The position numbers and the translations under genes are program-made. This document shows positions 57,259 through 62,954 of a stretch of 64,000 bases of DNA, piece by piece. This DNA comes from Chloroherpetonaceae bacterium (GTDB taxonomy: Bacteria > Bacteroidota > Chlorobiia > Chlorobiales > Thermochlorobacteraceae). The stretch lies in assembly GCA_033763895.1 (NCBI GenBank), contig JANRJQ010000004.1, positions 731,001 to 795,000 of the forward strand. The letters are read 5' to 3'. The notes beneath the pieces are model-generated. The model saw nothing but the letters and a program-made list of their open reading frames with translations. It was not told where the DNA came from and made no database searches. Positions within the stretch are counted from its first letter, which is position 1, and every line of letters starts with the position of its first letter.

Positions 57259-60054
57259 TTATTTCACCAACATCATTTTCATTGTTTTGGTAAAACTGCC
57301 TGCTTGCAAGCGATAGAAATACACGCCACTTGAAAGTTGTGAGGCGTTGAAATTCACTTCATAGCTGCCAGACTCTTGACGCGCGTTAATCAAGGTTGCC
57401 ACTTTGCGACCCAAAAGATCAAAGACTTCAAGCTGCACCAATCCGCTTTGCGGCAGTTGAAAGCGAATGCTCGTGCTCGGGTTGAATGGGTTCGGGTAGT
57501 TTTGTTGGAGTTCAAAATTATTGACTCTTGATTTTCCCTCTATTCGAGTTGAAAGAGGAGAGGTCGTTCCATTTAGTGCGAGTAGTGTTAAATCTTGGTC
57601 AACACGACGCGAATAACCTCCTACGATAATTCTTCCATTAGATTGAACGAGAAGTGAGTATCCGAGATCTTCTCGTTGAAACCCGCCTGCATCAATTTGT
57701 ACTTTTCCATTGGTTCCAAATGTATTATCAAGCGCACCGGTTGATAAATAGCGAGCAACAGCAATCTCGCGTGAGTCATTCGTGGTACCGGTTACAGCAT
57801 AACCGGCTGCAAGAATTTTTCCATCCGATAAAACCTTGATATCCAAGCATCCGTCTTCGCGGGTATTAAAATCGGTGACAACAGTTCCATTCGTTCCAAA
57901 TGTGTTATCCAAAGAACCGTTGGAATTTAGGCGAGCTAAAGCAAAGTTGTTATGAATACCACTGGTGGTACTGGCAACCGTTCCACCAACAACGATTTTA
58001 CCATCTGTTTGAAGTTGAATGGCATAGATACTTTCATTATTGGTATTGGCCGAAACGATATCAATTGTCACCTTTCCATCAGTATCGAAGGTATTATCCA
58101 ATGTACCGTCTGCATTTATGCGAGCAATTGCGAACTGTCCACCTGCCGTATTGGTTGTTCCCCCAACCAAAATTTTCCCATCAGCCTGACGAGCTAAAGC
58201 GTAAGCAACTTGACGCGAAGTTCCAACAATATCAATCGATACTTGACCTGCAGAACCGAATCCTAAATCCGGGCTTCCATCGCTATTGTATTGAAAGACT
58301 TCAAAATCATCTTGAGTGTCATCGTTCCAACCCGCAACGATAATTTTCCCATTAGGGAGCGCAAGCACATCATAGATTTCAGAACTTGCCAGTGTTGAAA
58401 TAATATAGCCTTGTCCGCCGGCAAATGAATTATCTAAACCACCATTGGCATTAAAGCGCGCGAGAGCAAAACGATTTGTTCCTGAAACCTGTGTGTATCC
58501 ACCAACCAAAATTTTATCATCCGATTGAACCACAACACAGGTGGCGGATTCAGAAACGCCATTTGCAAATGAGAAATAAACATTGCTATTTCCAGAGGTA
58601 ATGAACGTGGTATCTGTACTACCATCCTGATTGTAGCGCGTCACACACCAATCGAGATTTCCAAAAAGCGAACCTACTGCAATAATCTTTCCATTGCTTT
58701 GCTGAGCAAGATCACGGATAATCTCAGAGCCGGCACCGGCATCTCGAATATTCGTCGAGCCTGTTGTTTGAATAGCAAATGAGTTATCGAGTGTTCCATT
58801 GCTGTTGTAGCGTGCAACACCCACATTCACATTTCCCACAAAATCATCGACAAGTCCGGCAACGACCAATTTGCCCGTTCCATCAATGGCAAGTCCTCTT
58901 GCTTGATCGGTATTTGCATTGAAATCTGTTAAAACTCGTCCGTTGGTATTGAAGGTGTTATCAAATGCACCGGAGGGTTGCAAACGAATAACAAAAAAGT
59001 CATCTTTATCAAGGTTCGCCCCCGCATAGCCTGAGCAAACTATATTTCCATCGATTTGCAGTTCAAGTTTTGTAAACGCTTGACGGGTTGAAATTGCACT
59101 GATTGTGACTCTTCCATCGTTATCGAATGAATTGTCATTAGTGCCGTTTGTGTTGTATCGCCCAACAATTGCAGTAGCAGTTGCCCCGCTTGAAAATGCT
59201 CCGGCCGCGATAATTTTTCCATCTGCTTGAATTTTTACACTATTAAAATTCTGCGAGCCAATGCCGTAATCATCAATCCTTGTACCATCCGCATCAAATG
59301 TGGAATCACGAACACCATTTGAATTAAACCGACCTAATGCCGCTCTCTGTTCCGAACTTTCTACAACATAACCGGCAACCACTATTTTGCCATCACTTTG
59401 TAGCGTTACAGCATAAAGCCCATCGTTGCTTGCCGTTTGAGTGATTTGTCCGTTTGTGAAAGTTCCATCAAGTGTTCCATCAGTATTCACTCGAATCATT
59501 CCCCAATCAGTACCATTGGCAGAAGTTGTGCCAACAGCCACAATCTTCCCATCTGGTTGAATGGCTAACCCGTAGGCCACATCTTGCGCTCCTGTTGCAA
59601 TTCCAAACATTGCAACACCATCTCCTGAAAATGAAAGATCGGCACCACCATTGGCATTGAATCTTGCAATGACAAAATCATCGGTACCAAATGAATTTGC
59701 CTTTCCGGCAACAACAATCTTTCCGTCGCTCTGTATCGCGATTGCCCACAGTTCGGGGTTTGATCCCAGTAAAATCGAAGAGTATCCATTCGTTCCAAAT
59801 GTGCTATCTACGGCCCCATTGGAATTCAATCGGAACAGTCCATTGGAGTTTGTTAAAACAATTATTTTTCCATCGGTTTGAATTGCAACATCGCGCCCTT
59901 GCAATTGAGCTGAAGGGATAATGGTTGTCCCACTTAATGTTTTCGGGTTAAAGCTAAAATCACGCGTGCCATCCTGCGCGTTTAATCGAATTGCGGTGAA
60001 GAACAGCACCACAAGTAGTGTTAACATTTTTTTCATTTTGACACTTTGTTTCAT
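57259..60054 (-). CDS. Secreted delta-60-repeat protein with a T9SS sorting domain
   Basis: A 931-aa exported protein. A signal peptide (residues 1-26) is followed by about 14 repeats of 55-65 residues, each with a (Q/L)xDGKI(I/V)V core and an ending like RxNxNGxLDNTFGTNG (the delta-60, propeller-like repeat), and by a T9SS sorting domain (about 845-931: QQNYPNPFNPSTSIRF, DLLGRKVATLIN, SGVYFYRLQAG). Such repeats probably build a beta-propeller or solenoid at the surface. Ligand and role are unknown. The promoter region carries an 18-bp palindrome (60123-60140) also found before the response-regulator gene, so the two-component system upstream probably controls it. Confidence 0.85.
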   Translation of the reverse strand: MKQSVKMKKMLTLLVVLFFTAIRLNAQDGTRDFSFNPKTLSGTTIIPSAQLQGRDVAIQTDGKIIVLTNSNGLFRLNSNGAVDSTFGTNGYSSILLGSNPELWAIAIQSDGKIVVAGKANSFGTDDFVIARFNANGGADLSFSGDGVAMFGIATGAQDVAYGLAIQPDGKIVAVGTTSANGTDWGMIRVNTDGTLDGTFTNGQITQTASNDGLYAVTLQSDGKIVVAGYVVESSEQRAALGRFNSNGVRDSTFDADGTRIDDYGIGSQNFNSVKIQADGKIIAAGAFSSGATATAIVGRYNTNGTNDNSFDNDGRVTISAISTRQAFTKLELQIDGNIVCSGYAGANLDKDDFFVIRLQPSGAFDNTFNTNGRVLTDFNANTDQARGLAIDGTGKLVVAGLVDDFVGNVNVGVARYNSNGTLDNSFAIQTTGSTNIRDAGAGSEIIRDLAQQSNGKIIAVGSLFGNLDWCVTRYNQDGSTDTTFITSGNSNVYFSFANGVSESATCVVVQSDDKILVGGYTQVSGTNRFALARFNANGGLDNSFAGGQGYIISTLASSEIYDVLALPNGKIIVAGWNDDTQDDFEVFQYNSDGSPDLGFGSAGQVSIDIVGTSRQVAYALARQADGKILVGGTTNTAGGQFAIARINADGTLDNTFDTDGKVTIDIVSANTNNESIYAIQLQTDGKIVVGGTVASTTSGIHNNFALARLNSNGSLDNTFGTNGTVVTDFNTREDGCLDIKVLSDGKILAAGYAVTGTTNDSREIAVARYLSTGALDNTFGTNGKVQIDAGGFQREDLGYSLLVQSNGRIIVGGYSRRVDQDLTLLALNGTTSPLSTRIEGKSRVNNFELQQNYPNPFNPSTSIRFQLPQSGLVQLEVFDLLGRKVATLINARQESGSYEVNFNASQLSSGVYFYRLQAGSFTKTMKMMLVK

Positions 60055-60122
60055 TTGATAAGGCTTTCAAAAATTCTTGTGAAAGAACCTTACAAAAATC
60101 TTTATTCAAAGAGAGCTTTGAA

Positions 60123-60140
60123 ATGACCAACGTGTGTCAT
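60123..60140. promoter_or_regulatory. Palindromic site upstream of the delta-60 gene (probable response-regulator box)
   Basis: ATGACCAACGTGTGTCAT is an imperfect dyad, ATGACnnACGTnnGTCAT, identical to the site at 60859-60876 and followed in both places by TTTT. It ends 18 bp before the response-regulator stop and begins 69 bp before the ATG at 60054. Confidence 0.65.
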
Positions 60141-60158
60141 TTTTCAGAAGAAGGGAGT

Positions 60159-60812
60159 TTAAATCAATCCTTGTTTGATGGCCTTTGACACGGCTTCGGA
60201 TTTGGAGTGGACGTGGAGTTTATCGTAAATCTTGCGGGTATGATTGCGTACGGTTTCAAAGCTTATAAAGAGCTTTTCGGCAATCATTGTAAAGTTGAGC
60301 CCATCGACAAGCAGGGAAAGGATTTCCTTTTCACGCGGCGTGAGATCAACGCCGGTATGCTCTTCGGGGGCAAATTGCACATACAGTTGGGAGATTTTTT
60401 TTGCAACCGCCGGCGACATCGGCATTCCGCCATCTGCCGCATCTTGAATCGCTTGAATCAGACGCGCCGGTGCCGTGCGCTTTAAGATATAGCCACTCGC
60501 GCCAGCAATGATTGATTTTGAAATGTGCGATTCATCATCGAAAACCGTCATCATCACAATTTGAGCCGCAGGGAATCGCGCTTTCATTTCAGTTATGCCT
60601 TCAATCCCCGATTTCCCCGGCAAATGAATATCCATTAAAATCACATCACACTCCGGCATTAAACCCATTGCCAATTCAAGGGATTCATATTTCCCAACCA
60701 GTTCAAACCCCTCCGTCGATTCAATCATATACCCCACACCCTGCCGAAAGGCCTCATTATCTTCAACGATTCCGACTCTTATCACTCGGCCTTTCAATTC
60801 ACTTTGCTGCAT
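60159..60812 (-). CDS. NarL/LuxR-type response regulator
   Basis: A 217-aa two-domain regulator. The receiver domain has the acidic pair E17-D18, phospho-acceptor Asp61 in CDVILMDIHLPG, a Thr/Ser switch and Lys in LKRTAP. The C-terminal LuxR helix-turn-helix runs from about 150 to 212: LTPREKEILSLLVDGLNFTM then IAEKLFISFETVRNHTRKIY. Its partner is the histidine kinase immediately upstream (60882-62954). The 69-bp gap between the two genes contains an 18-bp palindrome, so it is likely autoregulated from its own promoter. Confidence 0.93.
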   Translation of the reverse strand: MQQSELKGRVIRVGIVEDNEAFRQGVGYMIESTEGFELVGKYESLELAMGLMPECDVILMDIHLPGKSGIEGITEMKARFPAAQIVMMTVFDDESHISKSIIAGASGYILKRTAPARLIQAIQDAADGGMPMSPAVAKKISQLYVQFAPEEHTGVDLTPREKEILSLLVDGLNFTMIAEKLFISFETVRNHTRKIYDKLHVHSKSEAVSKAIKQGLI

Positions 60813-60858
60813 ATCTTTTTGCTTTATAGAATATTAACTCAACCGAGCAAACTTGGAT

Positions 60859-60876
60859 ATGACCAACGTGTGTCAT
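60859..60876. promoter_or_regulatory. Palindromic site upstream of the response-regulator gene
   Basis: A second copy of ATGACCAACGTGTGTCAT, 47-64 bp before the ATG at 60812, between the kinase stop and the regulator start. Identity over 18 bp plus a following TTTT with the copy at 60123-60140 is unlikely by chance in non-coding DNA. Confidence 0.65.
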
Positions 60877-60881
60877 TTTCA

Positions 60882-62954
60882 TTAGAATTTTCCGAGAGGC
60901 AGTTCCACCCAAAAAGTGCTTCCCTTGCCAAGCCCTTCAGAGGTGGCCCAAATTTTTCCGCCGTGATGTTCAATAATTTGTTTGGTGATATAAAGCCCCA
61001 AGCCTGTAGAAGTTTCGCCACCTGTCGGCTTTGCAGAAAGGCGCTGAAACTTTCCAAAGAGTTTGGATAAATCTTCCTCAGTCATGCCTTGTCCTTCATC
61101 ATGAACAGAAAACAGAAGGCTCGCGGGTTTGATGCCATTTGGATTCACATCCAATTTTTCTGAAAGTGATATTTGGATGGTGCTGCACCGAGGAGAATAC
61201 TTCACGGCATTCCCAATAATGTTTTCCAAAACTTCGCGGAGCTTATCAGGGTCTCCTTCAACATCACCCACTGTTGCGAGTGATCTTTTTATTTGCTGCG
61301 ATTTCCGCTCTGCCCCAGAAGTTACAAGGCACTCTTCTATCAAGACTTTCAGATTCACCCGTTCGCGCATCATTTCGCTACTGCTTTTTTCGGAGGCTGC
61401 ATTGAGTAAATTCACCGTTTGGCGAAGCATTGCTTTTGATACGGATTCGATATACCCCAACATTTCGCGTTGCTTTTCATTTAAGGCAGGGGCTGATTTT
61501 AAGAGGTATGAAAAATTCAACACCGAGCTGATTGGCGTTTGAAGGTCGTGCGCCACAATATTAAGCACTTCCGTTTTCACACGGTTGGCTTCTTCTGCGG
61601 ATTTCAGTGCCGCAGTTAAGGCTGTGCTTCGTTCGCGTTCGGCTTCGGCTTCGCGGCGAATTCGTTCGCTTTCAAATTTAATTTCCAAACTTTCAATCGA
61701 GCGTTTACGCTCCTTGCTTTGCAATTCGCGTTCCAAAACGAGATGCTGCTTCAAGTAGTCCAGTGCGAATAGAGGCTTCTGGGTTGATTCGTAGAATGCG
61801 CTCAGTGCTGCGGTAGCGGTTGATTGTAACCGAAGTTCGCCCAAGTCAAGCCCGATGTGATGAGCCTCTAAATAGGCTTCTTCCGCTTCTGATTCCCGAT
61901 TGGTTTTGGCAAGCAAAGCAGCCAATGCTAAACGGACTTGCGCTTCCTTTTTGCGCTCTTTGATTTCGCAGGCAAGCGAAAGCGCGTCACGTAAGTATGA
62001 CTCAGCTTCCGTAAAATTACTTTGCTCGAATGCGGCTTCGCCCAGATTGTGCAAAAGCGAAACGCGTGCATCAAGGTTTGAACTTTTTCTTGATTTCTCT
62101 AATGCCTCCTCAGCCACAAACCGAAATGCATTGTAATCTTTCAGTTTGAGGTAGGCCAAAGCAAGATTTGACGCGGCGGAAATTTCGCGGGTTTCGTTTC
62201 CAAGGGAGCGGTAAATGCCCATTGCTTTTGCAAAGACATCTTTCGCCTTTTCAAATTGCTCTCGCTCTAAAAGCACTGTTCCTATGTTAATGAGGGTTTT
62301 CCCGGTGTTGAGCTGGCTTTTCATTTGCTCAAAGATCGCAAGGGCTTGATAAAGCGATTCGATTGCTTCGGCAGTTTCGCCAATACGTGAAAAAATGATG
62401 CCTCGCCCCATTATCGCCAGCGCCGCACCTTCTTCATCAATTAACTCCCGATTAAGAGACTCCGCTTTCAGGTAATTAATCAAGGCATGCTTGTAATTGC
62501 CAATTCGCCCGTAGGCATTGGCTAAGCCTAAGGTGGAAGCCGCTTCATCTTTCACTTCCCCTGCTTCTTCCAAAAGCGGCAACGCCCGCTCGTGAGCATC
62601 TATCGCCTTTTCAGGCTCCCCCTGATGCTCATAAAAAAAGCCTTTTGTTTTTAAGATTTTCCCGCGAAGCACCCTTTCGAGATTGGGTGAACTACGGTTT
62701 ATTTCGAGCGTCTCGATAGCCGCTTCGGATTCGCTCAATGCCAAGAAAGCAAGGGAAAAATCGCCTAAGAGAATGGCGGAAAAAGCTTTCCCGATTTTAG
62801 CTAAGATGCAAAGTTCAATGTTACTTGTGCAATGAGACTTTTCCAGTGCCGAGTAAATTTCCATCGCACCAGCAGCATGATGATAACGCATCGCGTCAGC
62901 CGAGCTCAAAAGTGCACGGTCGTTGTTTTGCGTGTCGAGACTTTCACGATTCAT
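60882..62954 (-). CDS. Cytosolic TPR histidine kinase
   Basis: A 690-aa kinase without membrane helices or signal peptide. About ten tetratricopeptide repeats fill residues 20-400 (for example EKAIDAHERALPLLEEAGEV and KHALINYLKAESLNRELIDE). A charged coiled coil (about 410-460) and the HisKA domain follow, with phospho-acceptor His469 in LNIVAHDLQTPISSV. The HATPase domain has the N box ENIIGNAVKYSP, G1 HDEGQGMTEEDLSKLFGKFQ and G2 GLGLYITKQIIEHHGG. The TPRs probably sense or bind a cytoplasmic partner. The cognate regulator is the next gene. Confidence 0.93.
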   Translation of the reverse strand: MNRESLDTQNNDRALLSSADAMRYHHAAGAMEIYSALEKSHCTSNIELCILAKIGKAFSAILLGDFSLAFLALSESEAAIETLEINRSSPNLERVLRGKILKTKGFFYEHQGEPEKAIDAHERALPLLEEAGEVKDEAASTLGLANAYGRIGNYKHALINYLKAESLNRELIDEEGAALAIMGRGIIFSRIGETAEAIESLYQALAIFEQMKSQLNTGKTLINIGTVLLEREQFEKAKDVFAKAMGIYRSLGNETREISAASNLALAYLKLKDYNAFRFVAEEALEKSRKSSNLDARVSLLHNLGEAAFEQSNFTEAESYLRDALSLACEIKERKKEAQVRLALAALLAKTNRESEAEEAYLEAHHIGLDLGELRLQSTATAALSAFYESTQKPLFALDYLKQHLVLERELQSKERKRSIESLEIKFESERIRREAEAERERSTALTAALKSAEEANRVKTEVLNIVAHDLQTPISSVLNFSYLLKSAPALNEKQREMLGYIESVSKAMLRQTVNLLNAASEKSSSEMMRERVNLKVLIEECLVTSGAERKSQQIKRSLATVGDVEGDPDKLREVLENIIGNAVKYSPRCSTIQISLSEKLDVNPNGIKPASLLFSVHDEGQGMTEEDLSKLFGKFQRLSAKPTGGETSTGLGLYITKQIIEHHGGKIWATSEGLGKGSTFWVELPLGKF

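Follow-up and report, generated by a model that had tools for sequence, protein, structure and literature searches.

A conserved palindromic dyad as the putative operator of a TPR-kinase/LuxR-type response regulator system in Ca. Thermochlorobacteriaceae

Among the closest described systems is FimS/FimR of Porphyromonas gingivalis, in which a TPR sensor kinase and a response regulator exert positive control over surface-protein genes (PMC5706477, PMC11053733). The locus studied here, in a window of 64,000 nucleotides (the whole stretch of DNA that was analysed), likewise pairs a TPR kinase with a response regulator, and its kinase has its best NCBIfam hit in FimS (2.5e-37), although the score of 128.4 bits falls far short of the equivalog cut-off of at least 600. 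In FimS the TPR domain is periplasmic and flanked by two transmembrane helices, whereas the window kinase looks soluble, since a search for a clear transmembrane stretch found none, the mean hydropathy nowhere exceeding 1.63. The targets also differ, being fimbriae for FimS/FimR and a delta-60/T9SS protein in the window, and the papers that we consulted gave no FimR operator. Judged from its sequence, the window system may work like FimS/FimR without being a member of it by the features compared, and a FimS/FimR-like TPR-kinase/LuxR-type system appears to be the best reading of the locus. The kinase orthologue of one relative (G001, L062:3827-6022) has a hydrophobic N-terminus that is absent from the other four, and there the TPR sensor may be exported, as in FimS.

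The usual partners of NarL-type regulators are HisKA_3 kinases, but the kinase beside the regulator of this locus (hereafter RR-A) is of the HisKA type. RR-A consists of a REC domain followed by a GerE helix-turn-helix, both Pfam matches lying above cut-off, and shares this architecture along its full length with the NarL/LuxR-family regulators VraR, NarL and DesR, its closest solved structures; these bind dyads as dimers, as is predicted for RR-A, although all NCBIfam equivalog models score it far below cut-off. LuxR at the lux box is an example of class II activation from a site centred near -42.5, and the sites described below resemble the lux box in being dyads of ~20-22 bp that touch the -35/-33 region; RR-A differs from LuxR in lacking an autoinducer domain, in its site sequence and in its Bacteroidota-type -7 box. 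PorX/PorY also touches T9SS biology in the FCB group, but RR-A has a GerE DNA-binding domain, and PorX is absent among the best 25 models for RR-A. We found nothing in the literature on this operator, on delta-60 regulation or on Thermochlorobacter regulators.

The third gene of the locus codes for a 931-aa protein with 12-13 delta-60/DUF5122 repeats, whose T9SS tail matches TIGR04183 (2.4e-12, 46.7 bits against a cut-off of 23) and PF18962 (1.5e-11). By eye its N-terminus is hydrophobic, with the second ATG (60036) as the probable start of the signal peptide. The features of the locus are collected in Table 1.

Table 1. Genes, dyads and predicted promoter elements of the locus (window coordinates).
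Feature	Position	Strand	Basis or remarks
931-aa secreted delta-60 (DUF5122) beta-propeller with T9SS type A sorting domain	57259..60054	-	TIGR02608 x13, TIGR04183, PF17164 x12, PF18962
Delta-60 gene promoter, -7 box GATTTTTG (5/6)	60093..60100	-	offset 21-28; predicted +1 ~60088
Dyad copy 1, AAATGACACACGTTGGTCATTT	60121..60142	-	putative delta-60/T9SS gene operator; in G010 a dyad also precedes the shortened DUF5122/T9SS gene
RR-A, LuxR/NarL-type response regulator, 217 aa, REC + GerE	60159..60812	-	PF00072 1.9e-20, PF00196 1.2e-16
RR-A gene promoter, -7 box TAATATTC (4/6 to TAnnTTTG)	60829..60836	-	offset 21-28; predicted +1 ~60824, 12-nt leader
Dyad copy 2, 22 bp, AAATGACACACGTTGGTCATAT	60857..60878	-	proposed operator of the RR-A gene; equivalent dyad before the regulator gene in 4/4 orthologous loci
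TPR histidine kinase, 690 aa, TPR + HisKA + HATPase_c, H-box His469	60882..62954	-	domain search

The original prediction had pointed to identical 18-bp palindromes before the regulator and delta-60 genes. Both copies are indeed there, at 60123-60140 and 60859-60876, identical to each other and with nothing alike elsewhere in the window, where shuffled sequences give 0.02 matches at up to three mismatches. Copy 2 falls in the gap from the kinase stop (60882) to the RR-A start (60812), and copy 1 in that from the RR-A stop (60159) to the 931-aa gene's start (60054). In the 3.55-Mb genome (3,546,824 bases), ATGACCAACGTGTGTCAT occurs exactly twice, ahead of the RR-A gene and ahead of the T9SS delta-60 gene, and a pattern search for the dyad ATGACNNACGTNNGTCAT returned these two sites only; at three mismatches to the 18-mer the genome holds one extra match, inside an unrelated gene. 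The genome scan for which the prediction had called speaks for it, as the motif is not common away from promoters and each of its two copies precedes a gene. The TTTT described as following the site is present on the + strand; on the - strand, which codes for the kinase, RR-A and the 931-aa protein, the site reads AAATGACACACGTTGGTCAT(T/A)T and shows AAAA before it instead. Only one of the 58 T9SS-tail matches above cut-off in the genome belongs to a gene with such a dyad (class A), and by sequence the regulon is apparently local.

Orthologues of RR-A (75-84% identity) were found in four other genomes, all of the same class: G008, G003 and G001 belong to the family of the window (Chlorobiales/Ca. 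Thermochlorobacteriaceae) and G010 to another family of the order. A search of 98 genomes of the class gave no further orthologue at E <= 1e-58, only paralogues at 51-58%. In all five RR-A genomes the regulator gene has a dyad before it, and so have one or two of its neighbours, which mostly code for secreted proteins; the sites number 13, all no more than ~4 kb from the regulator. A two-fold symmetric site before candidate regulated genes is conserved; the G001 regulator gene is preceded by a weaker version, GACTAACACACATTGGTCATTT. What is kept across these relatives is AAATGAC-N8-GTCATTT. The N8 letters differ between genomes, and the ACGT centre, taken in the prediction as part of the dyad, falls outside the conserved element. 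A three-mismatch scan of 13 genomes, with the reversed pattern as control, gave 11 matches against 1 in the window's genome (G000), 4 against 0 in G003, 3 against 0 in G001, 2 against 0 in G008 and 4 against 2 in G010, and values at or near the control level in the genomes without RR-A. A single exact match in one of the latter (G007) lies in an apparently dispersed GTCATTTCGAGC repeat and was judged unrelated.

On the gene side of the dyad stands a TAnnTTTG-like box at a fixed distance, offset 21-28. TAnnTTTG is the -7 box of Bacteroidota (PMC7366714). At offset 21 the box is matched by 42 of 60 letters across the 10 non-redundant class A sites (next best offset, 30), against a shuffled maximum of 24.4 +/- 1.65, and none of 3000 shuffles reached 42. 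The nine sites of a sister class (class B, see below) again gave 21 as the best offset, with 32 of 54 letters (5/3000 across all offsets; p = 0.0001 when the offset is preset from class A), and the site before the G001 regulator gene, outside the first test set, has TAGATTTT exactly at offset 21. The spacing was spotted by eye in the same sites on which it was then tested, the class B and G001 tests being partly independent. The box at offset 21 is poor or shifted in 2/13 class A sites (that of the G010 DUF5122 gene, shifted by one, and that of the G001 secreted gene, 3/6) and in 4/9 class B sites (RR-B, merC, 594 and 175aa). Since the -7 box spans -12 to -5 in Flavobacterium (PMC9723704), the centre of the dyad would lie near -43.5, which is class II activator geometry; the start sites here are predicted, with a -7 consensus borrowed from the sister phylum Bacteroidota. 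With the start site so placed, the dyad is a fixed site beside the promoter, its centre within the -41 to -44 range of class II spacing. A composite scan for dyad plus -7 box with two mismatches was too noisy and added no targets.

We propose that the palindromes are operators of the LuxR/NarL-type regulator encoded between them, whose phosphorylated dimer would act as a class II-style activator on its own gene and on the adjacent secreted gene, with the TPR kinase supplying the phosphate; we put the probability of this reading at roughly three in four. In this proposal the TPR histidine kinase, encoded just upstream, would phosphorylate RR-A, and the RR-A dimer, bound to AAATGAC-N8-GTCATTT near -43.5, would sit next to RNA polymerase on a TAnnTTTG promoter and switch on the two genes. 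A signal sensed by the TPR domain would in this way yield more regulator and more exported delta-60 protein, very probably as a self-reinforcing genetic switch of a familiar kind. Our computational analyses show the sites, their association with the regulator and the fixed dyad/-7 geometry, and an autoregulated operator-promoter module of a TPR-kinase/LuxR-type system is, as a sequence-based assignment, well supported. From these observations we infer binding, its dependence on phosphorylation, the partnership with the kinase and activation over repression, the module being most likely an activating one. That the dyad is the operator of a LuxR-type dimer, as originally predicted, is supported by its retention with the regulator in five genomes, by the -7 box at fixed spacing and by the sister dyad at the gene of the paralogous regulator RR-B. 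The prediction had also joined the kinase, the regulator and the 931-aa protein in one circuit. The dyads before the RR-A and delta-60 genes support this for those two genes, but the 931-aa protein does not hold as a conserved target, since the target varies. Since the window has no dyad ahead of the kinase gene, we can only infer how the kinase fits into the circuit; that the TPR kinase pairs with a regulator of this kind is supported by a third paralogue in the same genome, in which both are fused in one polypeptide, TPR-HisKA-HATPase-REC-GerE (L015:1498-3633, G000:C7, - strand).

The same regulator could instead repress from these operators, its bound dimer covering the -33 region and blocking polymerase until the kinase acts, in negative autoregulation. 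Overlapping sites are capable of repression, and the promoter-proximal edge of the dyad does overlap the -33 region. Repressor sites, however, occupy varying positions, and it is class II activators that typically have a fixed site near -43.5; here a single site keeps that position at many promoters. As in activator-dependent promoters, the -7 boxes are imperfect and a -33 TTTG is not evident. FimR, the response regulator that goes with the most similar kinase family, acts as an activator (PMC5706477), and we regard repression as unlikely. We hold it more improbable still that another palindrome-binding regulator, for instance of the CRP/FNR or TetR type, reads the dyads and controls the locus by chance: the TGAC-N8-GTCA arrangement of half-sites and spacer may be readable by several families, but nothing in our results points to such a regulator, the sites occur around RR-A orthologues and fall to near background in family members without RR-A, and a sister version of the dyad stands before the paralogous RR-B gene.

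Both copies are palindromic and lie 5-18 bp past a stop codon, as might an RNA hairpin or a terminator/processing element 3′ of the kinase and RR-A genes. On the gene strand, however, the predicted RNA folds no better than shuffles do (z -0.1 and -1.1) and the dyad is not followed by a T run. Its distance to the next promoter is constant, whereas the preceding stop codon lies at varying distances and can even overlap it. We rejected the terminator/hairpin reading on folding and spacing and give it very little weight, although the location just 3′ of the stops leaves formal room for some role of the dyad in the upstream transcript. Least probable of all is a dispersed repeat or recent local duplication present twice by chance; copies within a genome are often identical, as are the three 22-mers of G010, but in the window the identity stops at the dyad, there are no copies elsewhere in the genome, and the element is kept across genera at orthologous places, which contradicts this reading.

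The gene under the second dyad varies between genomes. It codes for the 931-aa delta-60/T9SS protein in the window, for a secreted beta-propeller of ~400 aa in G003 and G010, and for a secreted family of ~330-370 aa with no known domain in G008 and G001, whose predicted structure is of low quality (pLDDT 54); G001 has in addition an 85-aa secreted peptide as a candidate target. The G003 kinase and secreted genes form one unit, with the kinase gene in the downstream position. Since the 931-aa protein has no relative at 1e-50 in nine genomes, it appears to be a local case of a general arrangement. G010 also holds an internally shortened relative, a 143-aa delta-60/T9SS ORF (L061:10683-11114, G010:C181) in which the N-terminus is joined to the T9SS tail with nearly all repeats gone and which has its own dyad; possibly it reflects an internal deletion or an assembly collapse. 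In G003 a third dyad is followed by an open frame without a usual start codon (L063:4266-4982, - strand), near phage-like genes, and by eye the C-terminal part of this frame resembles an ADP-ribosyltransferase fold.

RR-B, a second stand-alone regulator of the window's genome (C11:45979-46599), is 55% identical to RR-A, and its own gene is preceded by the sister dyad AAATAACACAAATGTGTCATTG. The class B dyad, approximately AAATRACAC-N4-GTGTYATTG, is found at L058:6706-6727 and at eight further places in this genome (loci L053-L060). Besides the RR-B gene, class B dyads precede a gene for a secreted WD40 beta-propeller and one for a TIG/FG-GAP protein, a small lipoprotein-like gene, the genes of a 175-aa secreted protein and of two further secreted proteins that match no family, a MerC/TonB-receptor pair and an enoyl-CoA hydratase gene; most of these are secreted or envelope genes. 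The class B sites may belong to RR-B, to which its autoregulatory site points; cross-binding of RR-A and RR-B is possible, because their recognition regions are nearly identical. No such dyad was found within 300 bp of the other paralogous regulators (mostly kinase fusions), and around the fused kinase-regulator of this genome the best match has four mismatches. As a tentative model, these loci could represent a cassette with swappable cargo, in which an invariant operator-promoter module stays beside the TPR-kinase/LuxR-type regulator while the secreted cargo is exchanged between species, and in which, within the same genome, a paralogue whose dyad differs slightly has acquired a larger regulon of secreted and envelope proteins.

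What do these findings mean for the family? They suggest that Chlorobiota, too, use the TAnnTTTG -7 box of the Bacteroidota type. The RR-A/RR-B pair, with its related operators, offers a case for how LuxR-type specificity diverges. With an operator, a promoter spacing and predicted start sites, the uncultured Chlorobiota family Ca. Thermochlorobacteriaceae gains a concrete, testable regulon.
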